In this document: positions 24,281 to 41,186 of the stretch, piece by piece
Layout of the letters: each line of letters opens with the position of its first letter
Position numbering within the stretch: the stretch's first letter is position 1
From: Sphingomonadales bacterium
Lineage (GTDB): Bacteria; Pseudomonadota; Alphaproteobacteria; Sphingomonadales; Sphingomonadaceae
Length of the DNA: 64,000 nt
Direction of reading: 5' to 3'
Assembly (NCBI GenBank): GCA_014763545.1
Contig: JACXVD010000006.1
Span: 62,001 to 126,000, forward strand
Notes under the pieces: model-generated
The model's database searches: none
Told to the model about the DNA's origin: nothing
The model's input: only the letters and a program-made list of their open reading frames with translations
Program-made: the position numbers and the translations under genes

Positions 24281-24751
24281 GTGGGCGCCAGGCCACAGCT
24301 GGAATTCAACGAATATCTGCGGGAAAGCCACCCGGACCATCCGGGCTGGCACGAATGGCGCATCGCCGATGAAACGCGGTTCAACGGGGGCGTGCTCGGC
24401 ACCGTGCTGGTCCGTCCCGAAGGCGACGACCAGGCCCGGGTGCGCATCTTCCCGCGCCGCATCCACACCAATCTGGCCGACAATGTCCACGGCGGGATCA
24501 TCCTGGCGCTGATCGACATTTCGCTGTTCGCCGGGTCAACCGTCGCGACCGGCCACGACATGAAATTCGGCGTGACGGTGGAGGTTAACAGCCATTTCGT
24601 CGGCGCAGGCGATCCTTCCCGCCCGCTCGATGCCGTGGTCGAAGTGGTGCGCGAAACGGGCCGCATGATCTTCGTGCGCGGACAAGTGGTGCAGGACGAC
24701 GACATGGTCGCCAGTTTTAGCGGTATCCTGCGCAAGATCGCCCGCCCGTGA
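24281..24751 (+). CDS. PaaI-type hotdog thioesterase
   Basis: A 156-residue hotdog-fold protein of the PaaI family. The conserved block NVHGGIILALIDISLF contains the HGG motif and the acidic residue that takes part in catalysis; the C-terminal strand FVRGQVV is also typical. It hydrolyses acyl-CoA thioesters; the substrate is unknown. GTG 24281 starts two bases after the sdhB stop. The stop overlaps the zapE GTG start by four bases (GTGA). Confidence 0.8.
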   Translation: MGARPQLEFNEYLRESHPDHPGWHEWRIADETRFNGGVLGTVLVRPEGDDQARVRIFPRRIHTNLADNVHGGIILALIDISLFAGSTVATGHDMKFGVTVEVNSHFVGAGDPSRPLDAVVEVVRETGRMIFVRGQVVQDDDMVASFSGILRKIARP

Positions 24752-25866
24752 CCGGGGTGCTGCAACGCTACACCGCGCTGGTCGAGGCCGGCGAGTTGCG
24801 CGCCGACCGCGAACAGACCGCGGCGGCACAGCGCCTCGACGCGTTGCAGCAAGAACTTCAAGCCGTCCCCCAGCGCGGCAGCGTGTTGTGGCGCGCGCTT
24901 GGCCGCAAACCGCAGCGTCCGCGCGGGCTATACATCTGGGGCGGAGTCGGGCGCGGCAAGTCGATGCTGATGGACCTGTTCCACGATTCGCTGGCGATAG
25001 CGGAAAAGCGGCGGGTGCACTTCCACGCCTTCATGCTCGAAGTCGACGCGCTGGTGCGCGAGGAGCGCAAACGCGAAGCGGGCGATCCGATCGCCCCGGT
25101 CGCCGCCCGGCTAGCCGAGGGGCTACGCTGCCTCGCCTTCGACGAGATGGTGGTCAACAACACCGCCGATGCCGCGATCATGAGCCGGTTGTTCACCGCG
25201 CTGATCCGCGACCAGGGGGTGACGGTGGTTACAACCAGCAACCGGCCGCCGCACGATCTCTACAAGGACGGGCTCAACCGCTCGCTGTTCCTGCCCTTCA
25301 TCGACCTGATCGAGCAGGAGCTCGACATCTTCACGCTCAACGGCCCGGTCGACTACCGGCTGGACCGGCTTGGGGGGCTTGGCACCTGGCACCATCCGTG
25401 GGGCGATGAGGCGACGGCGCAGGTGCGCGAAGCCTTCTTCCGCCTGACCGACTACAAGCCCGAAGATGCCGCCCACGTGCCCAGCGCGGAGCTCGACGTC
25501 GGCGGGGGGCGCATGCTGCACGTTCCCAAGAGCCTGAAAGGCGTCGCCGTTTTCAGCTTCAAGAAGCTGTGCGGCGAGAACCGTGGCGCTTCCGACTATC
25601 TCGCGATTGCGCGCGCCTATCACACGGTGGTGCTGGTCGGGATTCCCCGGATGGGGCCGGAAAACCGCAACGAGGCGATCCGCTTCACCAAGCTGGTCGA
25701 TGCGCTCTACGAACACAAGGTCAAGCTGTTCGTGACTGCCGCGGCCCTTCCGGAAGACCTCTACAAGAGCGGCGATGGTGCCTTCGAATTCGAACGCACG
25801 GTCAGCCGGTTGATGGAAATGCAGAGCGACGATTACATGGCGCTCGGCCACGGGATCGAGGATTAG
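24748..25866 (+). CDS. zapE: Cell division protein ZapE (AFG1-like ATPase)
   Basis: A 372-residue P-loop ATPase. Walker A is GGVGRGKSML (residues 65-74), Walker B is LAFDEMVV and a sensor region appears at VVTTSNRPP. This is the AFG1/ZapE family; E. coli ZapE associates with the Z-ring under oxygen limitation. GTG start, coupled to the thioesterase through a four-base overlap. It converges on the rpfF-like gene, with five bases between stops. Confidence 0.9.
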   Translation: MTGVLQRYTALVEAGELRADREQTAAAQRLDALQQELQAVPQRGSVLWRALGRKPQRPRGLYIWGGVGRGKSMLMDLFHDSLAIAEKRRVHFHAFMLEVDALVREERKREAGDPIAPVAARLAEGLRCLAFDEMVVNNTADAAIMSRLFTALIRDQGVTVVTTSNRPPHDLYKDGLNRSLFLPFIDLIEQELDIFTLNGPVDYRLDRLGGLGTWHHPWGDEATAQVREAFFRLTDYKPEDAAHVPSAELDVGGGRMLHVPKSLKGVAVFSFKKLCGENRGASDYLAIARAYHTVVLVGIPRMGPENRNEAIRFTKLVDALYEHKVKLFVTAAALPEDLYKSGDGAFEFERTVSRLMEMQSDDYMALGHGIED

Positions 25867-25871
25867 GGACC

Positions 25872-26831
25872 TCAGGCCGCGTTGGCGAGCTTGGCCTGTG
25901 CCGTGGTCAGCCGGTTCATCACCTTGAGGTCCTGCTCGCGCAGTTGCAGCGCGGAATCGGCCCACAATTCGGTGATGTCGGTCAGTTCCTCGAGCTTGAG
26001 GTCCCACACCAGCTTGGTCGCGCGGCGTGAATTGACCAGCCCGGCATGGCGCCGTTCGGACTTGCGGATGAATTCGCGGCAGGCATGCAGCCCCTCGCCC
26101 GTTTCCGCCAGCTCGTGCACCAGGCCCAGCTCGAACATTTCCTCCGCCGTATAGGTCTGGTTGGAAGTGATGATCCGGTCTGCCATCGCGCTGCCCAGCT
26201 TGCGGGTGAGCAGCGCATGGGCGCCCATCCCGGGGAACAGGCCAAACATGATTTCGGGCAGGCCGAAGGTCGCACCGCGTTCGGCGACGATGTAGTCGAA
26301 GCTCAGCAAGGCTTCGAACCCGCCACCCAGCGCCGCGCCCTGGGCGAGCCCGATGGTCAGCACCGGCAGGTCAAGCGACTGCATGTTGCGGTGGAGCATG
26401 CGGCAGCAACGGTGGCCGTAGCGCACCAGCCCTTCGCGGTTGCGTTCGAGGATCAGCTTGCGGAACAGCGCTAGGTCGCCACCGAAACAGAACACCCCCG
26501 GCGCGCGACTGCCCAGCACCATATAGCGCAGCGGAACCTTGCCAGGTCCGAAACTGCCGACGATCATATCCTGCCAGTTTTCGAAGTCGGCGAGCATCGG
26601 CGGCGTAAAACTCGGCCGACCGGAAGGGCGCATGAAAGTCCACAAGGTCTGGCTGTCGTCTTCGTAAAGGACATCGAGCTCGTTCAGTGAGAACAACCCC
26701 TCCGGGATCGAGGAATGCAGCGCACTTTCGGCGATCAGGTCTTCTTCGTTTCCTTCGAAAGGAAACGCCGAACTGCTCAGATCGGTGCCTTCTTTGCCCA
26801 CGCCATCAATTCCATTCGACAAACGATCCAC
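25872..26831 (-). CDS. rpfF: RpfF-type DSF synthase (crotonase superfamily)
   Basis: A 319-residue crotonase-fold protein closely resembling RpfF of Xanthomonas, which makes diffusible signal factor (a cis-2-enoic acid) from 3-hydroxyacyl-ACP by dehydration and thioester cleavage. The shared blocks are FGGDLALF (116-123), QGAALGGGFEALLS and FGLPEIMFGLFPGMGA. The two catalytic glutamates are E173 and E193, spaced 20 apart as in RpfF E141/E161. RpfF-like C-terminal blocks LTDITELWADSALQL and VMNRLTTAQAK also match. The N-terminus is about 30 residues longer than in RpfF; GTG 26831 is the start. No RpfC/RpfG partner is nearby. The gene follows the XrtA operon on the same strand. Confidence 0.82.
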   Translation of the reverse strand: MDRLSNGIDGVGKEGTDLSSSAFPFEGNEEDLIAESALHSSIPEGLFSLNELDVLYEDDSQTLWTFMRPSGRPSFTPPMLADFENWQDMIVGSFGPGKVPLRYMVLGSRAPGVFCFGGDLALFRKLILERNREGLVRYGHRCCRMLHRNMQSLDLPVLTIGLAQGAALGGGFEALLSFDYIVAERGATFGLPEIMFGLFPGMGAHALLTRKLGSAMADRIITSNQTYTAEEMFELGLVHELAETGEGLHACREFIRKSERRHAGLVNSRRATKLVWDLKLEELTDITELWADSALQLREQDLKVMNRLTTAQAKLANAA

Positions 26832-26869
26832 GTGCGACCCCCGGACCGGAATTTCTTCGATGGACCGGG

Positions 26870-26897
26870 ATTATGCCCCGCTAAATTCGCTTGGCAA
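26870..26897 (-). promoter_or_regulatory. Sigma-70-type promoter for the rpfF-like gene
   Basis: On the minus strand TTGCCA (26897-26892) and CATAAT (26875-26870) are spaced 16 bases apart. The -10 box lies 38 bases before the GTG start. This suggests that the gene can be transcribed separately from the XrtA operon, which ends at 26968. Confidence 0.55.
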
Positions 26898-26967
26898 TGC
26901 ATTAATTTCTAGGAAGAATCCGGGCGCGTCCCGTTTTTGGCCACGGCGCTTGAAAAGGCCCGCTTTT

Positions 26968-28866
26968 CTATCCCCCGATTTCGAGCCGCGACAGCGCGCG
27001 GTCGAGCATTGTAAGCTGCCACAACAGTCGCCCATGGTCCGAACGGCCCGCGATATGCGCTTCGGCCAGCGCCGAAATCCGCGCGCTATCGAGCCACCCG
27101 GTGCGTGCGAGCGAGGCGCTGGAGGCAATCGCCCGCGCCTGTCCGGCGAGCGGCCCGCGAAACCATTCGGCCAGCGGGGTGACGAAACCCTGCTTCGGCC
27201 GGTAAAGGATATCCACAGGCAAATAGCGTTCCATGGTCTTCTTCAGCAGCCATTTTCCCTGCGTGCCGCGGATCCGCTCGCCGCGCGGCAGTTGGGCGGC
27301 AAATTCGACCAGGCGATGGTCGAGCAGCGGCTCGCGCGCCTCCAGGCTCACCGCCATGCTCGTGCGATCGACTTTGGTCAGGATGTCGCCCGGCAGCCAG
27401 AATTTGAGATCGGCATATTGCGCCCGGTCCAGCCCATCGCGCGCCGGGGCGTTGCGCATCAGTTCCACCAGCGGCTGCTCGGCACGGTAATCGCCGCGCA
27501 GGCGCAGGAAGTCCGGCGAATAGAGGCTCTGGCGCAATTCGGGCGGCAAGATCGCCAGGGCCCTGGCGTAGCCTTCATTGCCGTCGCCGGCGAGCGAGAG
27601 GAACGTCGTCTTCGCGCGCAGGGGGCGCGGCGCCCAATCGGCCTTGGGCCAGAGACTGCCGAGCGCACCGAAAACCGGGCCGCGCAGGACTGCGGGCAAG
27701 ACGGAGCGTGCCTGTTCCTCACGCGCATGGAATATCTGGCGGCGATATCCGGCCAGCGCTTCGTCCGCGCCGTCACCCGACAGCGCAACCGTCACTGTCT
27801 CGCGCGCCAATTGGCACACGCGCCAGGTCGGCAGGGCGGAGGCATCGGCGAAGGGTTCGTCGAACATCGCCGCCAGCGTGTCGATCGCGCCGAAATCGTC
27901 GGGGTCGACCATCCGCGCGTGATGCTGTGTGTGGAACCGATCCGCGATCTGCCGCGCGTAGGAACTTTCGTCCACCCCTGCGACATCGAAGCCGATCGAG
28001 CAGGTCCGCACTGGCTCGCGGCTTGCCTCCGCCATCAACGCGACGACGCTGGAACTGTCGACCCCGCCCGACAGGAATGCGCCCAGCGGTACATCCGCAA
28101 CCATGCGCGACGATACCGCCTCGCGCATCAGATGGAGCAGTTCGGCCGAATGGTCCGCTGTGCTGCCCTTGCGCCGCTCGGCGAAGGAAATGTCCCACCA
28201 TTGCACCGGCGCCGGCGGCGGCGCGCCGTGACGCAGCAGGCGATAGTGCCCGGCGGGTAGCTTCTCGACACCCTTCAGCATCGAACGGTGATCGGGCACA
28301 TAACCCCAGGTGAGATAGTCCTCCACCGCCAGCGGGTCCGCCTCCCGGCGCAGCAGCGGGTGTGCGAGCAGGCCCTTCAGCTCGGAAGCGAAAGCCAGGC
28401 TGCCATCGCTCAGCGGGGCCATGAACAGCGGTTTCACCCCGAAACGATCACGCGCCAGCAGCAATTCGCGCCGCTCGAGATCGTAGAGCGCGAAGGCAAA
28501 CATGCCATGCAACCGTGGCAGGCAATCGGCGCCCCAGCGCTGCCAGGCGGCCAGGATCACCTCGGTATCGCCATCGGTGCGGAACTGCGCCCCGCCCGCC
28601 TGCAATTCGGCCCGCAATTCGCGGTAATTGTAGATCTCGCCGTTGAACACGATCGCAGCGCGCCCGTCCGCCGAATGCATCGGCTGCGGTGACCCGGCGA
28701 GGTCGATGATCGAGAGACGACGATGGCCCAGCCCCACACCTGGCGCGGTCCAAACGCCCGCCCCATCCGGCCCGCGATGCTCCATCGCATCGCACATGCG
28801 CTCTATCCGCGCCGGATCGACCGGCTTCGGGGTGGGACAATGGAAGAGGCCGGCGATCCCGCACAT
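26968..28866 (-). CDS. XrtA/PEP-CTERM-associated amidotransferase (asparagine synthase family)
   Basis: A 632-residue class II glutamine amidotransferase fused to an asparagine-synthase domain. The start MCGIAGLFH places the Cys nucleophile at residue 2, which fixes the start at 28866. The synthase ATP-binding loop is LSGGVDSSSVVA. In exosortase-A loci this family (TIGR03108) is thought to amidate a sugar or uronic acid of the exopolysaccharide. It is the last gene of the XrtA operon, 13 bases after xrtA. A GAAAAG/CTTTTC inverted repeat overlaps the stop. Confidence 0.88.
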   Translation of the reverse strand: MCGIAGLFHCPTPKPVDPARIERMCDAMEHRGPDGAGVWTAPGVGLGHRRLSIIDLAGSPQPMHSADGRAAIVFNGEIYNYRELRAELQAGGAQFRTDGDTEVILAAWQRWGADCLPRLHGMFAFALYDLERRELLLARDRFGVKPLFMAPLSDGSLAFASELKGLLAHPLLRREADPLAVEDYLTWGYVPDHRSMLKGVEKLPAGHYRLLRHGAPPPAPVQWWDISFAERRKGSTADHSAELLHLMREAVSSRMVADVPLGAFLSGGVDSSSVVALMAEASREPVRTCSIGFDVAGVDESSYARQIADRFHTQHHARMVDPDDFGAIDTLAAMFDEPFADASALPTWRVCQLARETVTVALSGDGADEALAGYRRQIFHAREEQARSVLPAVLRGPVFGALGSLWPKADWAPRPLRAKTTFLSLAGDGNEGYARALAILPPELRQSLYSPDFLRLRGDYRAEQPLVELMRNAPARDGLDRAQYADLKFWLPGDILTKVDRTSMAVSLEAREPLLDHRLVEFAAQLPRGERIRGTQGKWLLKKTMERYLPVDILYRPKQGFVTPLAEWFRGPLAGQARAIASSASLARTGWLDSARISALAEAHIAGRSDHGRLLWQLTMLDRALSRLEIGG

Positions 28867-28879
28867 ATTCTGCTGCCCC

Positions 28880-30433
28880 CTATCGCAGCCCTGCCGCGTG
28901 GTCCATCCACGCGCCGCGATCGCCAATGGCTGCGGCGAAGGCAGCCACGCTCCTGGAAGCGTCGCGATCTTCGGACGAGACAATCAGCATCATGGCGGGC
29001 TGCGAACGCAACAACAACTTGTCACGCATCGTCGCCAGCTTGAACCGGCTGGCGCTACCGGTGGTCAGATCGCCGCGCCGGTAGCTGGTCTGCGCCAGGC
29101 GCTTGATCGAGCCGAGCGCAAACAGCCAGTCGCCCTGCGCCTGTTCATCCGAGGCTCCCGGTTCGAGCCAGCGCCAGGGTGTTTCCAGCATCAACGCGCC
29201 TTCGCCGAAGGCGGTCGCTTCCTGACCTTCGCGCTGCGCGGAATAGAGAGCCAGGAAAACATCGACCGTCTGCCCCTGCCCGTCGCGATAGCGCGCGAAC
29301 AAGCGGTGGTCCGCCCCGGTTGCGCGCGGCTCCCAAAAAAGCTGCTGCGGCGCGTCCACCATGGTCCACCCACTCACCTGCGGCAAAGCGACCCGCTCCG
29401 GCAGCGGAGCCTCGACACGCGCGGCAAGCGTGCTCCACACGGCAAAGCCAAGCACCAGCGCGCACAAGGCAGCAAGCGCGGCATTGCCCGGCAGGCGCAG
29501 GTCGGCAAGGCGGGCCAACAGCGGCGAAGCTTCGATAGCGGCAGGATCGAACGCTGGGTCTTCGGGTGCGCGGTCGAAACTGCGCCACCACATGCCCAGC
29601 AACATGGCGATCACCAGCGCGAAGAATATCCAGCCGTAGAAGATATGATCGAAACCGGCAGCGAATTCGATCCCCTGCGACTGGGCGATGAAGATCGTCC
29701 CCCAGGCGCGCACCCCGTTGGCGACCACCGGCAGCACGATGGCCACCGCCATGAAGGCGATCCGGCGCGCCCAGCTGCGAAAGCAGCAGTTCGCAACCAG
29801 CGCACCGAGCGCGATCATGGCGACGAGGAATTGCACGCCCGAACATGCCTCTGCCACTTCGAACAGGCCGCCGGGCGTATCGATGAACACGCCGTCAATC
29901 TGCGCGGGAACGCCACTCCACCCGACCAGCGCGACGACGATACGGGCCGTAATCATCTGCAGTGGCGGCACGAATTCATCGCCGAAGGGCACCAGGAAGG
30001 CACTGTAAGCCAGCGGGAAGGCCAGCCCGGCCCCAACGCGCGGCCCCAGAAGCGCCAAGACGGCGCCGACCAGCGCTGCAACCGCTCCGGCCTGCGAAAC
30101 CAGATTCACCCCCGCAATCGAACCGGCCAGCCATCCGAACAATGCCAGTGCGGTCGCAACAAGTCCCGGCCACCAGCCCTGCGGACCGAGCGGGGCAAGC
30201 TCGCGGCGGCGCATCCACACCAGCCAGCCGATGATCGCCGGGATCAGCAGGATGTGGTTGTAGGTGGAGCTGTTCCACCACTGCCCGGCCATTTCGAACC
30301 AGTCATGCGCCGTCAGCAGCAGGATCGCCGCCCATGCCAGCGCGAGGCGTGTCAGCGGGCGACGCCAGGCCTCGGGCAGCGACGCGATGATGCCCTGTCG
30401 TGGCAGCGGTTCGATATGCGCCTCAGGCGGCAT
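28880..30433 (-). CDS. xrtA: Exosortase A with fused EpsI domain
   Basis: A 517-residue polytopic membrane protease-transpeptidase that cleaves the C-terminal PEP-CTERM signal of exported proteins. The catalytic triad is visible as Cys197 (EACSGVQF), Arg242 (VANGVRAWGT) and His263 (FDHIFYGW). About eight membrane segments fill residues 25-290. A periplasmic EpsI-like domain occupies roughly 320-517, as in the XrtA subtype. The start overlaps the preceding glycosyltransferase stop by 11 bases. No PEP-CTERM substrate is encoded in the window. Confidence 0.92.
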   Translation of the reverse strand: MPPEAHIEPLPRQGIIASLPEAWRRPLTRLALAWAAILLLTAHDWFEMAGQWWNSSTYNHILLIPAIIGWLVWMRRRELAPLGPQGWWPGLVATALALFGWLAGSIAGVNLVSQAGAVAALVGAVLALLGPRVGAGLAFPLAYSAFLVPFGDEFVPPLQMITARIVVALVGWSGVPAQIDGVFIDTPGGLFEVAEACSGVQFLVAMIALGALVANCCFRSWARRIAFMAVAIVLPVVANGVRAWGTIFIAQSQGIEFAAGFDHIFYGWIFFALVIAMLLGMWWRSFDRAPEDPAFDPAAIEASPLLARLADLRLPGNAALAALCALVLGFAVWSTLAARVEAPLPERVALPQVSGWTMVDAPQQLFWEPRATGADHRLFARYRDGQGQTVDVFLALYSAQREGQEATAFGEGALMLETPWRWLEPGASDEQAQGDWLFALGSIKRLAQTSYRRGDLTTGSASRFKLATMRDKLLLRSQPAMMLIVSSEDRDASRSVAAFAAAIGDRGAWMDHAAGLR

Positions 30434-31655
30434 CGCGGCGCTGCTCCGTCACCCGCTTGCCCACCAGCCCGGCGAGCGGGGCGAGCATCGCGGGCCAACC
30501 CTGCCGTTCGACGACGAAGCGACGCGCGGCGGCCGCCATCGAAAGCGCCGCCGCCCCATCCGCCAGCAGGGCCAACGCCCGGCGAACCAACGCAGCATCG
30601 TCGGCGGCAATCGCGAAATGTTCGCCATCTGCCGCGTCTATGCCGGTCGCGGCTTCGGGCGTCAGCAGCACCGGGCGCGCCATCGCCATGGCCTCCAGCA
30701 CCTTGTTCTGCACGCCGCGCGCAATATCCAGCGGCGCAATCACGATATCGGCACCGGCAAGGAAGGGCCGCACATCGGGCACCTCGCCCCACACTCGCAC
30801 ACCGTTCCTGCCGTCTAGCGCACGCAGTTTCGCCACCGGGGCCCGACCCACGATATGAAACTGCGCCGTCGGATATTGTTCGCGGACCGCCGGAAGTATC
30901 CGCGCAGCAACCCGTTCGGCGGCAGCGACATTGGGCGCATAGTCCATCTGCCCGGTGAACACGAAATGCGGCCCCGGCTCGGTAGCGAGCTTATGATGCG
31001 GCGCGGCGGATTGCGGATCGAAGAAGCGATGGTCGATCCCGTTGCGCAGTACCTGCACGTCGGCCTGCGCGCCCTGAGGCTGGCGGGAAGCGAACAGCGC
31101 GGCCTCGTTCTCGCTGATCAACAGCGTATGGTCCGCGCGCTGTGCCAGCCGCGTCTCTTCCGCCGCCAACAGCCGCCCTTCGCGCGCATCGATCCAGCGA
31201 CGGGGAAAAGATCCGGTGCGGGCGTAGGCATCGAATTTCGCGCTGTCGACATCGCACAAATCGACGATCACACGGCCCGAGAAATGTTCGGGCACATATT
31301 GCCCCATCTGCCCGGAAAACACAAAAATCGTGTCGATCCCGCGGTTGGCGACTGCATGGTCAACCCATGCACGCAATGGCCGATCGTCGAACGCCGTCAG
31401 GCTGACCGGTTTGCCCGATTGGAGCGCCTCGACCCCTGCACGCCACAGCGGCCTTGTGCGGCGGGCGAGGCGATAGCTGGCCGCGACCTGCTTGAGCGCG
31501 CCTTCCTGCGCCATATCCCCGTCGGTCTCACCGAAACAGGCAACATGCACCGGCGCCATCCGCACCAGTTCCTTGAGCAAATGGTGCGATCGAATCTTGT
31601 CGCCCCGGTCCGGCGGGAAAGGAATGCGATGGGCGAGAAACAGGATCTCGCCCAT
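30423..31655 (-). CDS. XrtA-associated glycosyltransferase (TIGR03087-like)
   Basis: A 410-residue GT-B glycosyltransferase that starts MGEILFLAHRIPFPPDRGDK, typical of the exosortase-A-linked TIGR03087 family. The donor domain carries FVFTGQMDYAPNV and PLDIARGVQNKVLEAMAMA, with the usual Glu for nucleotide-sugar binding. It should add a sugar to the exopolysaccharide repeat unit in the cytoplasm. The start overlaps the FemAB stop by one base (TGATG), so the long upstream extension of the frame is rejected. Confidence 0.88.
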   Translation of the reverse strand: MGEILFLAHRIPFPPDRGDKIRSHHLLKELVRMAPVHVACFGETDGDMAQEGALKQVAASYRLARRTRPLWRAGVEALQSGKPVSLTAFDDRPLRAWVDHAVANRGIDTIFVFSGQMGQYVPEHFSGRVIVDLCDVDSAKFDAYARTGSFPRRWIDAREGRLLAAEETRLAQRADHTLLISENEAALFASRQPQGAQADVQVLRNGIDHRFFDPQSAAPHHKLATEPGPHFVFTGQMDYAPNVAAAERVAARILPAVREQYPTAQFHIVGRAPVAKLRALDGRNGVRVWGEVPDVRPFLAGADIVIAPLDIARGVQNKVLEAMAMARPVLLTPEAATGIDAADGEHFAIAADDAALVRRALALLADGAAALSMAAAARRFVVERQGWPAMLAPLAGLVGKRVTEQRRDAA

Positions 31656-32722
31656 CAGCCCAGTCCCCTCGCGATATGCGGCCCGATCCGGTTGGCAAGC
31701 GCAAGCGGCAGGCGCTTCCACGCCTCGATCTTGGCGGAATAGCCCGCATCGGTCGGGTCGATGTTGCGCGCCTCGCTGCCGGGTGCGGCCCATGTCGCAT
31801 AGGTCAGCGGCTCGGGCTCGAAGCCCCAGTTCTTCTTGAAGCGATAGGGTCCGCTGTCCACTTTGGAGCGGCCGAAGTCGAAATGCTCACAGCCGCGCCG
31901 GCGCGCGTGGCACATCAGTTCGTAATACATCAGCTCGCTGGCTCGCAGCCCGCGCGCAGCCCAGCCACCCCCGCCCCAATAGGGCAGGACCACACCCTTG
32001 TGATACAGGCTGAGGACGCTGGCGACGGGTGTTCCGCCGTGGCGGACCGTGAGTATGTCCGCATCCTCGCCAAACAGGTCAAGCACGGCATCGAACAGGC
32101 TGCGCGGGAAGACCGGCGTGCCGAGATTGCGCACGCTTTCAGCGTAGCATGCGTAATGCGCCGCGCGATCCGCCTCCTCGCGACCGACCGATACCGTCAG
32201 ATCGTTGCCCAGCCCCTTGCGCACTTCCGCACGCTGCTTGCGCGGGATCGCATTCAGCTGCGCCTCGTCGTCCTCGGCCAGCGGGCCGGAGAAACCGGCA
32301 TGTTTGCCGCCGATGACCTGCCAGTGGGCGGGCAGATATCCGCCGCGCAGTTCCACGCTGGCGCAAGACCGGCGCTGCGCGACTTCTTCCGCCACGCCGC
32401 ACAGGCGGCGGGCAGTCACTTCGCGCTCCGCCAATGCGCCGCCGCCAACCGCGAAACCGCTCGATACCAGCGCACGCCCGAACAGGGGCGAATGAACCTC
32501 GGTCAACGGCAGCCAACCGGTGATCGCCCCGCCCTTCTCGGCGATCAGGCCGATGGCGCGCTGGCCCGCGCCCTGCTCCACCGCGCGCAGCCAGGCCGGG
32601 CGGTGAAAAGCGGTACCCTGCGGCATGGCCGCGACCAGGCCTTCGATCCGCGCCACTTCGCCCGGATCGCGCAAATCGACCTGCGAAATCACCTCGCTGC
32701 AAAGGGGAAAGGGCGCGTTCAT
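31655..32722 (-). CDS. FemAB-family protein, XrtA/PEP-CTERM-associated
   Basis: A 355-residue FemAB/GNAT-fold protein (TIGR03019-like). Recognisable blocks are ITGWLPLTEVHSPLFG, RAEVRKGLGNDL, YYELMCHARRRGCEHFDFGRSK and PYRFKKNWGFEPEPL. FemAB proteins move aminoacyl or acyl groups to an amino group; in these loci the target is presumably the exopolysaccharide. Its stop overlaps the glycosyltransferase start, and its own start overlaps the deacetylase stop by four bases. A second FemAB-like gene lies at 42734. Confidence 0.87.
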   Translation of the reverse strand: MNAPFPLCSEVISQVDLRDPGEVARIEGLVAAMPQGTAFHRPAWLRAVEQGAGQRAIGLIAEKGGAITGWLPLTEVHSPLFGRALVSSGFAVGGGALAEREVTARRLCGVAEEVAQRRSCASVELRGGYLPAHWQVIGGKHAGFSGPLAEDDEAQLNAIPRKQRAEVRKGLGNDLTVSVGREEADRAAHYACYAESVRNLGTPVFPRSLFDAVLDLFGEDADILTVRHGGTPVASVLSLYHKGVVLPYWGGGGWAARGLRASELMYYELMCHARRRGCEHFDFGRSKVDSGPYRFKKNWGFEPEPLTYATWAAPGSEARNIDPTDAGYSAKIEAWKRLPLALANRIGPHIARGLG

Positions 32723-33591
32723 GCGACCAGCTCCGTGGCGCGGGCGGCCTCGCGATGGGCCAGCACATCCATGCGCCCCCAGGCGAATTCACCGACCAGT
32801 TCGCGCAGCTTGGGCGCCATCCGGTCGAGATTGGTATAATGCCTGACCCGCGAGCGTATCGGCGCGCCGGGCACACGCGGCTGGTCGGGGTCGATTTCCC
32901 ACGGGTGGAAATAGAATACAGCGGGGCGTTCGTCCTCGCGGTTTACCTGCCGGATCGCCCAGCGGGAAAAAGCATAGGGCAACACGCGGAAGAAGCCGCC
33001 GCCACCCGCCGCCACCCGCCGGCCGCCGAGCATCGCGGTGGTCACCGGAATTTCGACCAGATCGCTCCATGGCAATGGCGTGAAGGCAAAGCGCGGCGCT
33101 TCGCGCCAGCCGTAATGGTCATGCACGATCGGTGCGACGCTGGAGGAGTAGGCATAGCCCTGCTCGGCCAGCACCATGTAGGCCCAGGGGGTCCGCTGGT
33201 CGATCGAGAAGCTGGGCGCGCGATAGCCGGAGATCCGCTGCCCGGTCGCATCCTCGAGGATCTTGCGTGCGCGCTCGATATCGGCGGCGAATGCTTCGCG
33301 CCCCAGGGTAAAAACCCGTGCATGGTCATAGCCGTGGCTGGCGATCTCATGCCCGGCGTCGGCGATCCGGCGCATCAGCGCACCATTGCGCCGCGCCACC
33401 CAGCCGAGCGTGAAGAAGGTCGCCTTCACATCGGCTTCGTCGAACATTTCGAGGATCAGCTCGACATTGCGCACGACGCGACTGGAGAGCCCGTCCCAGG
33501 CGTCGCGTTCGATCACATTCTCGAACGCTCCGACCTGGAACCAGTCCTCGACATCGACCGACAGGCCGTTGACGATGCGCGGCGCCTCCAT
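32719..33591 (-). CDS. XrtA-associated polysaccharide deacetylase
   Basis: A 290-residue NodB-fold deacetylase (TIGR03006-like). The metal site is made of Asp in LSVDVEDWFQV and the two His of IASHGYDHARVF. Further family motifs are ISGYRAPSFSI and FYFHPWEID. It would remove N-acetyl groups from the exopolysaccharide. No signal peptide is seen, so its compartment is unclear. The length is standard for the subfamily. Confidence 0.9.
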   Translation of the reverse strand: MEAPRIVNGLSVDVEDWFQVGAFENVIERDAWDGLSSRVVRNVELILEMFDEADVKATFFTLGWVARRNGALMRRIADAGHEIASHGYDHARVFTLGREAFAADIERARKILEDATGQRISGYRAPSFSIDQRTPWAYMVLAEQGYAYSSSVAPIVHDHYGWREAPRFAFTPLPWSDLVEIPVTTAMLGGRRVAAGGGGFFRVLPYAFSRWAIRQVNREDERPAVFYFHPWEIDPDQPRVPGAPIRSRVRHYTNLDRMAPKLRELVGEFAWGRMDVLAHREAARATELVA

Positions 33592-33602
33592 GGAAACCCT
33601 CC

Positions 33603-34745
33603 TCAGGCCGCGACGCGCGGCTCTTTGCCGGTTTCGATGAATTCGATCATCATGGTCAGCGCGCTGCGGATCGAACGTTCCTGCTCGTCGAGCCGCGCCT
33701 CGATCTTGGCCAGCCGCTCCTCGATAGCGGGCGAAGATGCGCCGTCGGTCGCGGCAACCTCGATCACCGCCTGTTGCAGCTCAGCGATCTGCGCATCCCG
33801 CTGGGCGAGCAAATGCTCGACCGATTCCGCGGGCGCGACCGGCTGGGACTGATTCGACTGGTGCTTGATCGGGGTCGGCGCAGGCCCGCGTTCGACCTTG
33901 GGCATGGGCTGCGGTGCCGCTTCGGGGAAAGCATTGTCGCCTTCCATCTCCTTGAGCACCGAAGTCAGCATCGCATTGTCGATGCGGCTGCGTTGTTCGA
34001 CCGCGCCAAGCAGCAGCAGGCGGGTCATCACTTGGTTCACGCGGCGCGGGATACCACTGGTGGCCTGATAGAGTTCGGCAAAGACGCGCTGGTCGATCGC
34101 CGGGTTGCCATCCCACCCGACACAGGTCAGGCGGTGGCGGATATAGGGCTCGATTTCCGCGGGCTCCATCGGGCCGAGATGGTGGTTGGCGATCACGCGC
34201 TGGCGCAACTGCTCCAGTTCCTCGTGCCGCTGCAGCACTTCGCGGAATTCCGGCTGGCCGAGCAGCAGCGTCTGCAGCAGCGGGTGCGAGCCGAGCTGGA
34301 AATTCGACAACATGCGCAGTTCTTCCAGCGCCTCGACACTGAGGTTCTGCGATTCGTCCACCACCAGCAGGCAGCGACGGCCTGCACGCGCCTCGTCATG
34401 GAGGAAGGATTCGATCGCGCCGAGCGCGCTCGCCTTGTCGTGCCCCTCGATATCGAGGCCAAAGCTCTGCGCGGCGACATGGACCATTTCCTCGCCGTCG
34501 AGCGCGCTGGTCACGATCTGGCCGACTGTCATCTGGTCGGGGTCGATCTTGCTGGTCAGGTGCGCGACCAGCGTGGACTTGCCCGCGCCGACCTCGCCGG
34601 TGATGACGATGAAGCCTTCACCCTGCGCCATGCCGTAACCGAGGTAGGACAGCGCCTTGCGGTGCGTCGCGCTCTCGAAATAGAACTTCGGGTCGGGCGT
34701 AAGCTGGAAAGGCCGCCCCGAGAGTTGGTAGAAATCGTCGAACAT
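33603..34745 (-). CDS. XrtA-associated ATPase (ExeA/GspA-like)
   Basis: A 380-residue AAA ATPase (TIGR03015-like). It begins MFDDFYQLSGRPFQLTPDP, with Walker A ITGEVGAGKST and Walker B LLVVDESQNLS. After the ATPase core (about 1-270) comes a Pro/Gln linker and a coiled-coil tail (about 310-370) rich in Glu, Gln and Arg. It is related to ExeA/GspA proteins that use ATP to assemble envelope machines. It sits 14 bases downstream of the outer-membrane protein gene. Confidence 0.9.
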   Translation of the reverse strand: MFDDFYQLSGRPFQLTPDPKFYFESATHRKALSYLGYGMAQGEGFIVITGEVGAGKSTLVAHLTSKIDPDQMTVGQIVTSALDGEEMVHVAAQSFGLDIEGHDKASALGAIESFLHDEARAGRRCLLVVDESQNLSVEALEELRMLSNFQLGSHPLLQTLLLGQPEFREVLQRHEELEQLRQRVIANHHLGPMEPAEIEPYIRHRLTCVGWDGNPAIDQRVFAELYQATSGIPRRVNQVMTRLLLLGAVEQRSRIDNAMLTSVLKEMEGDNAFPEAAPQPMPKVERGPAPTPIKHQSNQSQPVAPAESVEHLLAQRDAQIAELQQAVIEVAATDGASSPAIEERLAKIEARLDEQERSIRSALTMMIEFIETGKEPRVAA

Positions 34746-34759
34746 CGTCAGTCTCCAGC

Positions 34760-36463
34760 TCAGAAGTCGTAGCGCAGGCCCACCAGCGCGCTGGCCGCCG
34801 CGATATCCTCTGCCGACAGGTCGGAATTGAGGAAGTCGTATGCGACCGCGGCACGCGCCGAGAGGTTGCGGGTGATGCTTTGGCTATAGGATGCGGTCGA
34901 GCCGACGCCCCAGGCGCTGGCATTGCTCACCCCGCTGTCGAAGTAGTTGCCATAGGTCGACAGGGTGAAATTGCCGCTGCGCCCGACCTGCCCGTTGAGC
35001 GCGATTGCCGCCCAGTAGGTTTCGTCGATCTTGCCGTTGGCCGCAGCCAGGATGGTGCCCGGCGCGGCGATGAACTTGCGCCGGTCGTAGCCGAGGCCGA
35101 AAGTCGCACCCATGCGGCCCGCCTGGACCGAATAGGTCGCTGCCAGCCCGCGGCTGCGGAAGGTCGCGGCGCGCACCGAACCGAGCACACCGTTGAGGCA
35201 GCTGCCACCTTCGAGGCTGGCAACGCAGCCGTTGACGTCACCGGTCAGCGGGTTGCGCACGGCCTGGAAATCGGTCGGCAACGCCGCCAGTGCGTTGGTC
35301 AGCTGGCCGCCGTAACCGAATACACCGTCATAGGCGGCGATATTCACCGCGCTGCGGCTGGTCGGCGCCCAGGCGAAGCTGCCGTAATAGGTCGTGGAAT
35401 CGTACCGCTTGCCAACATGCGCCTCGAACGAGGTACGCGTGCTCGGCCGCCACAGCACGCCGACATCCCAGATCAGGCCGGAGGTGTCATAGGCGATCTG
35501 GCGCGGCGCGCTCTTGTCGGTCACATAGCGACCGTCGCTGCCGATGACCGGATCGCCGTTGGTGTCACGCAGGACATCGCGGCTGGAAATCTGGACATCT
35601 TCGTATCCCACACCGCCCACGACCGCGACGCTGGGCGACAGCGGCACGGTGACATCGGCGCGCACATGCGCATCGCGCACGCGCTGGTCGAGGTTCGAGA
35701 TGTCTTCCTGGTAGAAACCACCGCCGACGCCCAGCCCCACCGGCAGCGGTTCGCCCGGTCGGGTCGCGAGGTGCAGATTGGCGGAGTGGACCCGCGAATT
35801 GTCGAACACATCGACCGGGTTCGCGCCCGGTGCGGCGACATAGGCGTTGGGCGCTTCGACCTTGGTATAGCCGAAGCGGTAGTTGGCGTTCACTTCGACA
35901 TCGCCCGCCCGCGTGTGCAGGTTAGGGCCGATATAGCCCGCGTAAGTGCGGCTTTCAGCGCTGGAGTTGTCGAGCGGGCTCAGCGTGGTGCTGCCGCTCG
36001 CATCCACCCGCGTGCGCGCGGCCAGTGCGCCGCCTTCCACGGTCAGCGCCTGCGGCACCACCGTGGCATAGCCGCGCGCGACGCCCGTGATCGTGTCGCT
36101 GTCGTAGGAATTGGCGTTCCAGCCGAAATTGCGCTCGTAACGGATCGAGACCGAACCGCCGTTGTTGCGGCCCTGCACGCTGGCATCCACCCCGGCAGCG
36201 ACCTGGGTGTAGGTCACCGTATCGTCGCCCGGCGACAGTTCCTTGAGCACGACCTGCGACACTTCGAGATACGGGGTCAGCGCAACCCGCCGACCGCCCG
36301 AACTCGCTGTGGGCGACGCGGACGATGGCGCCCCATCGCCGCCGCCTTCGCCGCCGCCGGTCACCTCGTCACCCCACGACTGCGCCACTGCGGGAGCCGC
36401 ACCGGCCAGCGCCAGCACCAGCGCAAACGGCGCGCCCAGCAGGGAAAGATGGGCCTGTTTCAT
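34760..36463 (-). CDS. XrtA-associated outer-membrane protein (TIGR03016-like)
   Basis: A 567-residue secreted beta-rich protein. The signal peptide is MKQAHLSLLGAPFALVLALAG with cleavage after AVAQ, then a Gly/Ser-rich linker. The rest consists of alternating amphipathic strands with aromatic girdles, ending in Phe (VGLRYDF), the C-terminal signature of outer-membrane beta-barrels. The TIGR03016 family occurs in XrtA loci and may be the outer-membrane channel or anchor for export. ATG 36463 has GAGGG upstream and is favoured over ATG 36478. Confidence 0.83.
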   Translation of the reverse strand: MKQAHLSLLGAPFALVLALAGAAPAVAQSWGDEVTGGGEGGGDGAPSSASPTASSGGRRVALTPYLEVSQVVLKELSPGDDTVTYTQVAAGVDASVQGRNNGGSVSIRYERNFGWNANSYDSDTITGVARGYATVVPQALTVEGGALAARTRVDASGSTTLSPLDNSSAESRTYAGYIGPNLHTRAGDVEVNANYRFGYTKVEAPNAYVAAPGANPVDVFDNSRVHSANLHLATRPGEPLPVGLGVGGGFYQEDISNLDQRVRDAHVRADVTVPLSPSVAVVGGVGYEDVQISSRDVLRDTNGDPVIGSDGRYVTDKSAPRQIAYDTSGLIWDVGVLWRPSTRTSFEAHVGKRYDSTTYYGSFAWAPTSRSAVNIAAYDGVFGYGGQLTNALAALPTDFQAVRNPLTGDVNGCVASLEGGSCLNGVLGSVRAATFRSRGLAATYSVQAGRMGATFGLGYDRRKFIAAPGTILAAANGKIDETYWAAIALNGQVGRSGNFTLSTYGNYFDSGVSNASAWGVGSTASYSQSITRNLSARAAVAYDFLNSDLSAEDIAAASALVGLRYDF

Positions 36464-36467
36464 GGGA

Positions 36468-37556
36468 TTATCCCTCATACCCGTAGTAAGACCCGAAGCG
36501 GCGACCGCTCGGGCTGAAATGCGCCGCGTTGAGCAGTAGCTTGATGTCGGGACAGGCGGAGAGCAGCTGGTAGGCGTCCTCCAGCGCGTTCTGTCCGGTG
36601 CGATCGGCGCGCGCGATGAGCAGCGCCTGGCCCACATGCTTGGCCAGCTCTGCCGCCGGCGAAGCGGCGAGCGCGGGTGCGGAATCGAAGATGACCATGC
36701 GATGCGGCGCGCCCATGGTCAGCCGATCGAGCACTTCGCCCGTGCGGGTGCTGGCGAGATATTCGGCATCGGCATTGGTCTGGTTGCCGGCGGGCAGCAC
36801 CCACAGGCCGGGGATGTCGGTCCCCATCACCAGCTCTTCCACCTTGATCGAAGGATCGGCCAACGCATCCATGAAGCCCGGCCCCTTGGGCAGACCGAGT
36901 ACCGAGAGGATCGACGGCTTGGCGAAATCGGCATCGACCAGCAGCACTTCGCCGTCGCGCTCATGCGCCATGGAAATCGCGAGATTGGTCGCGCAGAAGG
37001 TCTTGCCCTCGCCCGGCAGCGGCGAACAGACCAGCACGCGGCGTGAAGCAGCGGTTCCGGCATTGCGGGCAGACGACAAGATCTGCCGCTTTACGATGCG
37101 GAATTCTTCCAGCAGGCCGGTGACGCCCCCTTCGGGTACGATCAGGCCCTGTTCGCGCAGATGCTTGCGATCGACCTTGTGCGTCGCGCCGCTGAAGCTG
37201 ATCGCGTCGAATCCCTTGGACAGCATCATTTCGCCCGGCGGAACCGGGACCGGCATCGTCGCCTCGACCGGCAGGACGGGCTGAACATCGACCGGCGGTG
37301 CCGGCTGCACGTCTTCGCGAGCGACCGGGGCGTCCATCTGCGGCGCGGGTGCGTCGTCGATCCGTTCGGCCTTGCGCACAACCTTCTTCGCACGCTTCAT
37401 CGGCGCTTCGGCAAGTTCCTTGGGCACGGGCGCGGCACGATAGGCATCGAAGCCGAAGGTGCCGCTCGCACGCTCGAACAGCGAACCGGGCTGGCCGTTG
37501 CCGTTGCCCTTTTCCGGGTCTTCGCCGGGGAGCGGGATCTTGGTGTGTTCGGTCAT
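36468..37556 (-). CDS. XrtA-associated tyrosine autokinase (CpsD/Wzc kinase-like)
   Basis: A 362-residue BY-kinase that regulates polysaccharide chain length by phosphorylating its own tyrosines. Walker A is SPLPGEGKTF, Walker A' is LLVDADFAKPS, and Walker B-like VIFDSAPAL follows. The C-terminal tyrosine cluster YYGYEG would be the autophosphorylation site. The first 150 residues are Pro/Val-rich and unstructured. The membrane activator domain is encoded separately by the adjacent chain-length gene, as in CapA/CapB systems. Confidence 0.9.
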   Translation of the reverse strand: MTEHTKIPLPGEDPEKGNGNGQPGSLFERASGTFGFDAYRAAPVPKELAEAPMKRAKKVVRKAERIDDAPAPQMDAPVAREDVQPAPPVDVQPVLPVEATMPVPVPPGEMMLSKGFDAISFSGATHKVDRKHLREQGLIVPEGGVTGLLEEFRIVKRQILSSARNAGTAASRRVLVCSPLPGEGKTFCATNLAISMAHERDGEVLLVDADFAKPSILSVLGLPKGPGFMDALADPSIKVEELVMGTDIPGLWVLPAGNQTNADAEYLASTRTGEVLDRLTMGAPHRMVIFDSAPALAASPAAELAKHVGQALLIARADRTGQNALEDAYQLLSACPDIKLLLNAAHFSPSGRRFGSYYGYEG

Positions 37557-37566
37557 TCCGCTCTCC

Positions 37567-39087
37567 TCAGGCGACCATGCCGCGCTGGATGAATTCCACC
37601 GCCAGCAGCAGCACGAACACGCCGCCCAGCGCCGCGCTCGCCGCCATGAACATCCGCAGCCGCCTTGACCGCACGGCGCGCTCCGCGTCGCTGAAGGTCT
37701 GCGAGATCGACCCGATCACCGGCAGGCCCAGCGCCTTTTCCAGCGCGGAGGTTGTGGCGAAGGTCGAGCGCAGGTGGCCAATGGCAAAGGCAGCCCCCGC
37801 CCCGGCACCAAGCCCGGCAATCAGCACACCCAGCAGCAGCAGCGGCCGGTTGGGCGCGGAGGGCTGGCGCGGTGTGGTCGGCGGGTCGATCACCTCGAAC
37901 TTCACGCTCGAATTGTCGTTCTCCACCTGGCCGCGCAGCCGCATGTCCTCGCGGTTCTGCAAGAGATCTTCGTATTTTTTCTTGAGCACGTCGTAATCGC
38001 GGCTGATCCGGCTCGCCTCGGCCGCAACTGCCGGTTCGCTGGCCTGGTTGGCAGCCATCGACATGATGTCCGACTGCAACGCGGCGCGCCGGGCCTGGAG
38101 CGATTCGACCTTTGCTTCGCGGTCTGCCTTGATCGCCAGCAGCGAACTGTATGCCGGATTGGGCGTGCCGCCCGCCCCGGCGGGTTCACCGGATGCCTGC
38201 TTTTCGAGCAGCGCGATCTGGCGCTTCAGCGCCACGACATCGGGATGTTCGTCGGTCAGCCCGCGCGCCTGCAGCGAAGCGAGCTGCGAACGCGCCTGCA
38301 TCAGCGCGCCGCGCGCGCCACCCGCATCGCCCGGAGTGACCAGCGTCCGGGGCGTGCCGGCCAGCTGGCCGTTGATCGCCGCGAGCGAGCTTTGCGCTGC
38401 AGCAAGGTCTGCTTCGACACCGGTCAGCTCCGACCGGCTGGCGACCAGCCGCGTACCGATGCCATCGGCACCGCCGATCAGTTCGGGATGTTCCGCCTCG
38501 AAGGCGACGCGGCGTGCTTCGGCCGCTTCCAGTTCGGATTTGCGCTGTTCCAGCTGCTGGTCGAGGAAGACCAGCGAATCCTGCACTTCGCCGCGATTGC
38601 CGGCGATGTTTTCTTCGCGGAAGATGTCGATCATCTTCTGCACCACGACCTGCGCCAGCTTGGCGTTGTCGGCATCCGACAGGTTGCCCTTGCCGATCTT
38701 CGCGGTGAGCACGAAGAGGTTATCCTCGGTGCTGGTCACGGTCACCGCCTTGGCCAGTCCGCCGATCGCACCGTCGAGATCGCGCTGGGTGGTCACGCCT
38801 TCGCCCAGCTTGGTCGAACGGATCACCTTTTCCAGATTGACCGAGCTGGTCAGCGTCTGGCGGACGCGCTCGATATCCTGCTTGCTCGTGCCCGGGATGC
38901 CGATCTGCTGGGCGAGCACATCGTCCAGCTGGATGTAGATGCGAGCGCGCGATTCATAGCTGTTGGGGATCATCGCGATCGCCATCCAACCCAGCAGGCA
39001 CACGCCCCACGCCACCGCCAGCGCCAGCCAGCGGCGGTGCCAGATCGAATGGATCGCGGAGCGCAGTTCTTCGAAGATTTCATTCAT
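37567..39087 (-). CDS. XrtA-system polysaccharide chain-length determinant (Wzz-like)
   Basis: A 506-residue inner-membrane protein of the Wzz/PCP family (TIGR03007-like). An N-terminal membrane segment (ALAVAWGVCLLGWMAIAM) is followed by the Wzz domain, long periplasmic coiled-coil helices (about 150-420, rich in Glu, Ala and Gln), a Pro-rich stretch (PTTPRQPSAPNRP) and two C-terminal hydrophobic segments. It sets polymer length and would activate the tyrosine kinase encoded 10 bases downstream. Confidence 0.9.
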   Translation of the reverse strand: MNEIFEELRSAIHSIWHRRWLALAVAWGVCLLGWMAIAMIPNSYESRARIYIQLDDVLAQQIGIPGTSKQDIERVRQTLTSSVNLEKVIRSTKLGEGVTTQRDLDGAIGGLAKAVTVTSTEDNLFVLTAKIGKGNLSDADNAKLAQVVVQKMIDIFREENIAGNRGEVQDSLVFLDQQLEQRKSELEAAEARRVAFEAEHPELIGGADGIGTRLVASRSELTGVEADLAAAQSSLAAINGQLAGTPRTLVTPGDAGGARGALMQARSQLASLQARGLTDEHPDVVALKRQIALLEKQASGEPAGAGGTPNPAYSSLLAIKADREAKVESLQARRAALQSDIMSMAANQASEPAVAAEASRISRDYDVLKKKYEDLLQNREDMRLRGQVENDNSSVKFEVIDPPTTPRQPSAPNRPLLLLGVLIAGLGAGAGAAFAIGHLRSTFATTSALEKALGLPVIGSISQTFSDAERAVRSRRLRMFMAASAALGGVFVLLLAVEFIQRGMVA

Positions 39088-39103
39088 GGCCGGGCGCCGA
39101 TCC

Positions 39104-39745
39104 TCAGAACATACTTTCGGGGATGATGATCACGTCGCCGGGCTGCAGCATCACGTTGGCCTCGCTGTCGCCCTTGCGCAGCAGGTCGCCCAGCCGCAGG
39201 CCATAGGTGCGCTGCTTGCCGCTCTGCTTGTCGAAGCGGATCAGCTTGGCGTGGTTGGCGGCGGCGAATTCCGACAGGCCGCCGACCGCGATCATCGCGT
39301 CGAGCACGGTCATGTTCGCGCGGAAGGGGATGCTGGCAGGCTTCTCGGTCGCACCAACGATGCGCACCTGCTGGCTGAACGTGCCGGCAAACTTGGTCAC
39401 GATCACGCTGACCAGCGGATCTTCGATATACTGGCTGAGCTGCAGGCGGATGTCCTCCGCCAGCATCGCCGGGGTCTTGCCGACCGCGGGCATATCGGTG
39501 ACCAGCGGTGTGGTGATGCGCCCGTCGGGGCGGACCTGGATCTTTTCCGCGCCCAGTTCGGGGTTGCGCCAGACATGGATGGTCAGTTCATCGAGCGGGC
39601 CGATGATATATTCCTGGCTCGGCCCTTCCTGCATCGAAACGAAGGCAGCGGGCGGCAATTCCGGCTCGGTCGTGGCGCAGCCCGACAGGGCGAGAGCCAT
39701 GGTCGCGGCCGAGGCCATGAGAGCGGGAAAATGTGACTTCGGCAT
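39104..39745 (-). CDS. XrtA-system exopolysaccharide export lipoprotein (Wza-like)
   Basis: A 213-residue lipoprotein of the polysaccharide export family (TIGR03027-like). The signal ends in ALSGC. The Poly_export domain starts at YIIGPLDELTIHVWRNPEL, and a SLBB-like domain follows (VRIVGATEKPASIPF, QPGDVIIIPESMF). It should form the export pore through the outer membrane. First gene of the ten-gene XrtA operon, 181 bases downstream of the decarboxylase stop. Confidence 0.92.
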   Translation of the reverse strand: MPKSHFPALMASAATMALALSGCATTEPELPPAAFVSMQEGPSQEYIIGPLDELTIHVWRNPELGAEKIQVRPDGRITTPLVTDMPAVGKTPAMLAEDIRLQLSQYIEDPLVSVIVTKFAGTFSQQVRIVGATEKPASIPFRANMTVLDAMIAVGGLSEFAAANHAKLIRFDKQSGKQRTYGLRLGDLLRKGDSEANVMLQPGDVIIIPESMF

Positions 39746-39926: not shown

Positions 39927-41186
39927 TTAAACCAGCAATTCCGCGGCCGGACCCTGGCCGAGGAAGGCCGCCGGCGAGGCACTGGCGCCATAAGCTCCGG
40001 CGCAGAAAACCGCGACCAGATCGCCCACATTGGCGTGCGGCAGCAGCGCCTTGTCGGCCAGCCGATCGAGCGGGGTGCACAGGCAGCCCACGACATTGAC
40101 CTCTTCGGTCGGCTCCGCGCCGAAATGACTGGCGATGGCGACGGGGTAATTTCGCCGCACAACCGTGCCGAAATTACCCGAGGCGGCAAGCTGATGGTGC
40201 AGCCCGCCATCGGTCACGAGATAAGTCTCGCCGTGGCTGGTCTTGCGGTCGACGATGCGCGTCAGATAGACCCCGGCCTCACCCACCAGGTAGCGCCCCA
40301 GTTCGATGCAAAGCGCTGTATCGGCCAGGTTTTCGGGCAGGTTTTCGAACCGCGCAGCCAGCGCCGCGCCGACTTTCACGAGGTCGAGTGGCTCGTCACC
40401 CGCGAAATAGGGAATGCCCAAACCGCCACCCATGTTCAGCTTGGGCAACGGAGTGCCGATTTCCTCCGCCAGTTGATCGGCGAGGTTGAGCACATTGCCC
40501 TGCGTTTCGATGATCGCATCCGCGTCGAGCGCCTGGCTGCCGGTGAAAATATGCAATCCGCGCCAGTCGGCACCGGCGGCGATCAAATGTTTCGCCAGCG
40601 CGGGCACGCGATCCTGGTCGATGCCGAAAGGCTTGGCCCCGCCGCCCATCTTCATCCCCGAGCCGCGCAGTTCGAAGCTGGGATTGACGCGGATCGCCAT
40701 ACGCGGCGCCGTGCCCAAACGCTCGGCAATGGCCAGCGCGCGTGCCGCCTCGCCTTCGCTCTCGCAATTGAGTGTGACCCCGGCAGCGATGGCCGCTTCG
40801 AGTTCCTCGTCGCGCTTGCCCGGCCCGGCGAAACTGACCAGCGCGGGGTCGATCCCTGCTGTCCGCACCATCGCCAGTTCGCCGCCCGATGCGATGTCGA
40901 ACCCATCGACCAGCCCGGCCATGTGTTCGATCACCGGCCGCCAGGGATTGGCTTTCACCGCGTAATGGATCGCCAGCCGTTCGGGCAGCGCCGCGCGCAG
41001 TTGCGCCACCCGTGCATCCAGAAGGTCGCGCGAATAGACAAACAGCGGCGTGCGCCCGGCCTCTTCCACCAGTTCGCTCGCCTTGCGCCCGCCGATCGCG
41101 AGTTCGCCGTCGATGCCTGAGAACCCTGCGGGGATCGGGCCGAGTGGCTTGTTGGTCGGACGGTCGGAACGCTTTTCGCGGGTCAT
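39927..41186 (-). CDS. PLP-dependent decarboxylase, exosortase-A-associated
   Basis: A 419-residue fold-III PLP enzyme of the ornithine/diaminopimelate decarboxylase superfamily (TIGR03099-like). The PLP lysine is in IHYAVKANPW; the phosphate-binding region is NMGGGLGIPYF and the C-terminal catalytic Cys is in VVGCLCTPLD. It decarboxylates an amino acid, possibly one attached to a carrier. The start overlaps the acyl-ligase stop by four bases (ATGA), so the two work together. Confidence 0.88.
   Translation of the reverse strand: MTREKRSDRPTNKPLGPIPAGFSGIDGELAIGGRKASELVEEAGRTPLFVYSRDLLDARVAQLRAALPERLAIHYAVKANPWRPVIEHMAGLVDGFDIASGGELAMVRTAGIDPALVSFAGPGKRDEELEAAIAAGVTLNCESEGEAARALAIAERLGTAPRMAIRVNPSFELRGSGMKMGGGAKPFGIDQDRVPALAKHLIAAGADWRGLHIFTGSQALDADAIIETQGNVLNLADQLAEEIGTPLPKLNMGGGLGIPYFAGDEPLDLVKVGAALAARFENLPENLADTALCIELGRYLVGEAGVYLTRIVDRKTSHGETYLVTDGGLHHQLAASGNFGTVVRRNYPVAIASHFGAEPTEEVNVVGCLCTPLDRLADKALLPHANVGDLVAVFCAGAYGASASPAAFLGQGPAAELLV

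Follow-up and report, generated by a model that had tools for sequence, protein, structure and literature searches.

An RpfF-type DSF synthase gene beside the XrtA exopolysaccharide operon of Erythrobacter-type sphingomonads, and a candidate GGDEF-EAL receptor encoded elsewhere in the genome

The closest described systems are RpfF–RpfR of Burkholderia and Cronobacter (Bcam0581/Bcam0580) and RpfF–RpfC–RpfG of Xanthomonas. A convergent orientation of rpfF has been described both with rpfC and with rpfR (PMC4504480), and the FI domain of RpfR has been described as well (PMC6361424). Further points of comparison are DspI of Pseudomonas aeruginosa, a crotonase that, like RpfF, is implicated in a cis-2 fatty-acid signal, and the XrtA/PEP-CTERM exopolysaccharide operon. 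The stretch of sphingomonad DNA analysed here (64 kb; hereafter, the window) encodes a member of the RpfF family next to the standard XrtA gene set. As in RpfF–RpfR, the synthase and GGDEF-EAL genes of sphingomonad relatives are convergent, and a direct link to c-di-GMP would be expected. Unlike in that system, the synthase and candidate receptor genes are unlinked here, with rpfF beside XrtA, and the candidate receptor has a domain of 5–6 transmembrane (TM) segments where RpfR has its cytosolic FI and PAS domains. The gene order of relatives and a membrane-embedded input domain also recall the Xanthomonas system; however, the TM domains of the two show no detectable similarity, and neither the RpfC input domain nor an HD-GYP protein was detected in this genome. 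DspI differs in ranking among general crotonases in the fold search (TM-score of query 0.58–0.59, versus 0.75–0.80 for RpfF/DfsA). The XrtA operon of this clade is peculiar in having rpfF, apparently transcribed independently, at its downstream edge. The open-licence literature contained no paper pairing RpfF with an exosortase and none combining exosortase A, exopolysaccharide and cyclic di-GMP; judged from titles, counts and abstracts, its papers matching DSF together with Erythrobacter or Sphingomonas refer to these only in passing. Such absences are weak evidence of novelty.

Table 1. Features of the rpfF–XrtA region, in window coordinates.
Feature	Position	Strand	Remarks
ZapE/AFG1-type ATPase gene	24748..25866	+	own annotation; convergent with rpfF
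rpfF, RpfF-type DSF synthase	25872..26831	-	319 aa; catalytic Glu E173 and E193, RpfF-specific Trp W290
Conserved rpfF promoter (predicted)	26867..26898	-	ATTGCCAAGCGAATTTAGCGGGGCATAATCCC; -35 TTGCCA, -10 CATAAT
Conserved upstream box (candidate regulator site)	26926..26943	-	TGGCCAAAAACGGGACGC; about 35 nt before the -35
XrtA/PEP-CTERM system amidotransferase	26968..28983	-	TIGR03108
Exosortase A with EpsI C-terminal domain	28880..30433	-	TIGR03109, TIGR02914
Remaining XrtA exopolysaccharide gene set	30423..39745	-	glycosyltransferase, FemAB, polysaccharide deacetylase, ATPase, tyrosine kinase, chain-length determinant, export protein
Exosortase A system-associated pyridoxal-dependent decarboxylase	39927..41186	-	TIGR03099

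Phylogeny, predicted fold and residues confirm that the rpfF product is an RpfF-type crotonase, the identity put forward in the earlier note. Its ORF begins with GTG, a start supported by the homology of several relatives, which begins at residue 1. A quickly searched maximum-likelihood tree with SH-aLRT support, rooted on the long crotonase branches, placed the protein among RpfFs of the characterised type. Some members of this RpfF set are anchored to solved RpfFs, and a support of 99 separates the set from seven crotonases encoded in the same genome. The solved chains nearest by sequence are 7zq7, 3m6m (RpfF), 5fus, and 6dgn. The AlphaFold model has a mean pLDDT of 90.7, and the best 12 matches in a PDB fold search with this model were all RpfF or DfsA (TM-score of target 0.90–0.94).

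The protein carries the blocks GGDLALF, GGGFEALLS, and LPEIMFGLFPGMG, as had been reported earlier. All RpfF-diagnostic features are present: GGDL, the EI-F-LFPGMG block, and the C-terminal Trp helix (Trp258 equivalent). In the alignment to 3m6m, the glutamate pair corresponds, allowing for the tag offset, to E141/E161 of the Xanthomonas protein. The first glutamate and W290 (Xanthomonas W258) showed no variation across the sampled RpfF clades, and the second was invariant save for one Asp, in 1 of 16 RpfC-adjacent sequences. The exact 20-residue spacing of the two glutamates, which the earlier note had taken as a mark of RpfF, lost this status: most crotonases of the same genome have Glu at these columns (four and five of the seven housekeeping proteins, respectively), so that neither the pair nor its spacing is diagnostic. 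NCBIfam NF006452, a model with a generic family name, scored 344 bits (cut-off 177). The RpfF equivalog NF053515 gave 195 bits against a cut-off of 550; Burkholderia-type RpfFs near the solved BDSF synthases reach only 177–179 bits with it. NF053515 is a xanthomonad-type model and not a definition of the RpfF family. Since Burkholderia-type RpfFs fall short as well, the low score is uninformative on identity, and we rejected it as an argument against RpfF.

Exosortase A and its associated genes score above the curated cut-offs, except for the tyrosine kinase (181 versus 231 bits). Protein homology of the amidotransferase begins about 39 codons inside its longest ORF, and rpfF follows this gene at 137 bp, in line with the standard XrtA set, which bears out its reported position downstream of the XrtA genes. 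The decarboxylase gene serves as the left boundary marker where the XrtA operon has been lost; on the other side, zapE bounds a slot that stands empty in rpfF-less relatives. The operon also contains a 625-aa ORF (34760–36637, minus strand), which is conserved in related XrtA loci but for which neither Pfam nor NCBIfam gave a match at the thresholds applied.

Among 298 genomes of the order, rpfF is present in 60 and an XrtA-type exosortase in 236; many XrtA genomes lack rpfF. Named carriers of the rpfF type of this clade include Erythrobacter, Pelagerythrobacter, Pontixanthobacter, Altererythrobacter, and some Novosphingobium. In 36 of the 40 sampled genomes that have it, this rpfF shares the strand of XrtA and lies on its downstream side, as counted from coordinates and gene maps. 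According to tblastn maps, rpfF has stayed in place where the operon between it and the decarboxylase gene is gone (G206 and G236), where only an ATPase match is left (G186), and where only ATPase and deacetylase matches are left (G030). The same maps revealed an empty site in six rpfF-less genomes, with amidotransferase and zapE matches 9–28 bp apart. The zapE–sdhB flank of rpfF is conserved as well as the XrtA flank, and adjacency alone is therefore no proof of function. The neighbourhood is real yet positional, the result of one relocation. Of the XrtA link seen in the earlier note, the conserved linkage within one clade thus stands, while the functional pairing does not follow from it.

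Several variations were observed around these loci. Seven mapped loci (L116, L123, L127, and L175–L178) have about 5 kb inserted after the XrtA amidotransferase gene, ahead of rpfF; the two inserts examined (L116 and L123) contain ABC-transporter genes of the ABC-2 type. In L111, L112, L116, L122, L123, L126, and L128, rpfF and zapE are separated by a pirin-type gene (PF02678, as tested on L111) that is convergent with rpfF. In three genera (g3, g7, and g28), some XrtA open frames are just ~330–420 aa long, which suggests loss of the EpsI-type C-terminal domain; several genomes with such frames lack rpfF.

No site of the region resembles a sigma-70 promoter more closely than the one predicted earlier for rpfF (26870–26897), and many relatives have conserved it. 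The pattern TTGCCA-NNN(N)-RAST was found upstream of rpfF in 56 of the relatives' 110 loci, a set with some species present twice (shuffled mean 0.3), and in many relatives a TGnCC-N6-GRGAC box lies ~35 nt farther upstream. A weight matrix gave 21.6 bits at the window site, a value that is not independent given that this site is among the 24 aligned promoters used for training; all other sites in the window scored 5.9 bits or less. Strong promoter sites have been kept in L121, L167, and L166, loci that have lost all or most of the XrtA operon (an L166-type sequence was likewise used for training). Given this conservation, also where XrtA was lost, rpfF is most likely transcribed on its own, from the predicted promoter. 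The strict pattern was not found in the organism's own genome. Of its three matches across 21 genomes, two lay immediately upstream of rpfF, while the third, in G124, was elsewhere. With the matrix, neither the window nor the receptor locus of this organism yielded a credible second site; a few other loci gave weak matches, of 12.6 bits at most. On these scans, we rejected the idea that rpfF has a promoter element in common with the XrtA genes or with the receptor gene.

The earlier note had found no rpfC or rpfG sensor gene in the window. This is correct, and neither gene was found elsewhere in the genome. The five-TM input domain of RpfC was missing from this and 12 related genomes in a search that did detect the RpfC-type kinases of three control genomes. 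No HD-GYP domain (RpfG) was found in the genome, and the FI domain of RpfR was not found either, the FI-PAS profile matching a PAS/GGDEF part only. With an assembly of 123 contigs at 97.55% completeness, these absences are likely, not certain. The statement on sensors was incomplete in one respect, since a candidate of another kind is encoded on contig C67.

This candidate is orthologous to a protein encoded next to rpfF in relatives. In 13 sampled relatives that do not belong to the XrtA-linked clade, rpfF faces, in convergent orientation, the gene of a membrane GGDEF-EAL protein, whose N-terminal part has 4–6 TM segments predicted from hydropathy; the structure model of the organism's own copy has six long helices in this part. 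The N-terminal domain had no meaningful Pfam match and no PDB relative at E-values up to 1. Comparison of its profile with that of the RpfC input domain showed no similarity (hhalign probability 0.3 percent), and homology of the two was rejected. A profile of the TM domain had matches in every one of the 52 genomes carrying this RpfF type; among the remaining 246, 13 had a match above 90 bits (Fisher p 3e-46, a value that overstates the evidence, the genomes being related).

The single match in the organism's own genome (L146:5399-7369:-, on C67) has intact GGDEF and EAL motifs. In a tree, it groups with the rpfF partner of one relative, G232, and with other orphans, apart from six further EAL proteins of its own genome. 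The flanks at C67 and in G232 agree: a B12-type TonB receptor gene, a cell-wall hydrolase gene, and a small ORF precede the GGDEF-EAL gene, which is followed by rpfF in G232 and by mdh–sucD at C67. The RpfF of G232 is sister to the XrtA-linked RpfFs, and the receptor tree likewise places G232 as sister to the split clade. Given this synteny and sister position, the most parsimonious history is a single move of rpfF that separated it from the receptor gene. All 39 orphan receptors accompanied by rpfF have an intact GGDEF motif; of the 13 orphans lacking rpfF, 7, from two genera, have an altered one. This difference is suggestive only and could represent two events. The altered orphans have AGDEF or GSDEF instead (L160, L162, L180, and L183; L165, L181, and L184). 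AGDEF cyclases can be active.

The best explanation, which we consider probable, is a DSF-to-c-di-GMP circuit with an uncharacterised receptor architecture, whose relocated synthase gene now lies beside XrtA. Judging from the chemistry of its family, RpfF would most likely dehydrate 3-hydroxyacyl-ACP and cleave the thioester, giving a cis-2-unsaturated fatty acid. The most likely receptor would be the membrane protein in which an input domain of 5–6 TM segments is fused to GGDEF and EAL, and the signal would alter c-di-GMP directly at the membrane. Ancestrally, synthase and receptor genes were convergent neighbours, the arrangement seen in the 13 relatives. Trees and synteny indicate that in the clade ancestor only rpfF was relocated, into the slot that the XrtA amidotransferase gene and zapE–sdhB enclose, where it is most likely under its own conserved promoter, and that the receptor gene stayed behind. 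More speculatively, c-di-GMP might then adjust XrtA-dependent polysaccharide among other outputs. We tentatively, and with less confidence than in the circuit itself, propose a third core architecture of DSF perception in Erythrobacter-type sphingomonads: a signal-sensing 5–6 TM input domain joined to GGDEF and EAL, uncoupled from a synthase gene that lies beside XrtA under its own promoter. With a sphingomonad version whose receptor is built differently, one could test directly how an uncharacterised membrane domain reads a lipid signal into c-di-GMP, and the likely sensor gene surviving elsewhere in the genome makes the proposed circuit testable. The lineage also offers a natural experiment, with paired, split, synthase-lost, and XrtA-lost states, so that the receptor link can be separated from the XrtA link.

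Evidence against this circuit is that the candidate receptor is devoid of the FI and PAS domains through which RpfR acts and of detectable similarity to the RpfC input domain, that rpfF has no promoter element in common with the XrtA or receptor genes, and that 13 genomes retain the GGDEF-EAL protein without rpfF, so that it may have another role. The latter also favours a reading in which a DSF-type fatty acid is made but is perceived by some unrecognised protein, or sensed only by neighbours; the role of the C67 protein rests on adjacency in relatives, synteny, and co-occurrence. Co-occurrence in 52 of 52 genomes, congruent trees, and a convergent pairing like that of rpfC and rpfR in known systems (PMC4504480) make this rather unlikely. 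About as doubtful is a dedicated unit, in which the DSF signal specifically controls the adjacent XrtA operon. The linkage is kept in 36 of 40 genomes from many genera, and elsewhere DSF and BDSF govern exopolysaccharide (for example, PMC9684580); however, it goes back to a single relocation, rpfF has its own probable promoter and shares no promoter element with the XrtA genes, the sdhB side is equally conserved, and four genomes have kept rpfF after losing most or all of the XrtA operon.

A role of RpfF outside signalling, as an acyl-ACP thioesterase/dehydratase for lipid metabolism or envelope modification, is improbable. Crotonase chemistry is versatile, and the fusion of some relatives to a haem-oxygenase-like domain hints at further processing of the product, but the protein has the RpfF-specific residues and clade membership, and its family is repeatedly paired with signalling proteins. 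Least credible by far is an ordinary enoyl-CoA hydratase: the generic NCBIfam name and the glutamates and spacing common to crotonases would fit, but the tree, the residues confined to RpfF, and the fold, with RpfF or DfsA as the first 12 PDB matches, led us to reject a housekeeping crotonase.

The fusions just mentioned occur in RpfF homologs from other Sphingomonadales families, in which the C-terminal part is an iron enzyme domain resembling haem oxygenase (PF14518, as tested on L102). They are encoded beside histidine-kinase-type genes (L101:1994-3880, L102:8019-9911, L104:8820-10886, and L106:6989-9016), and their product may be processed further.
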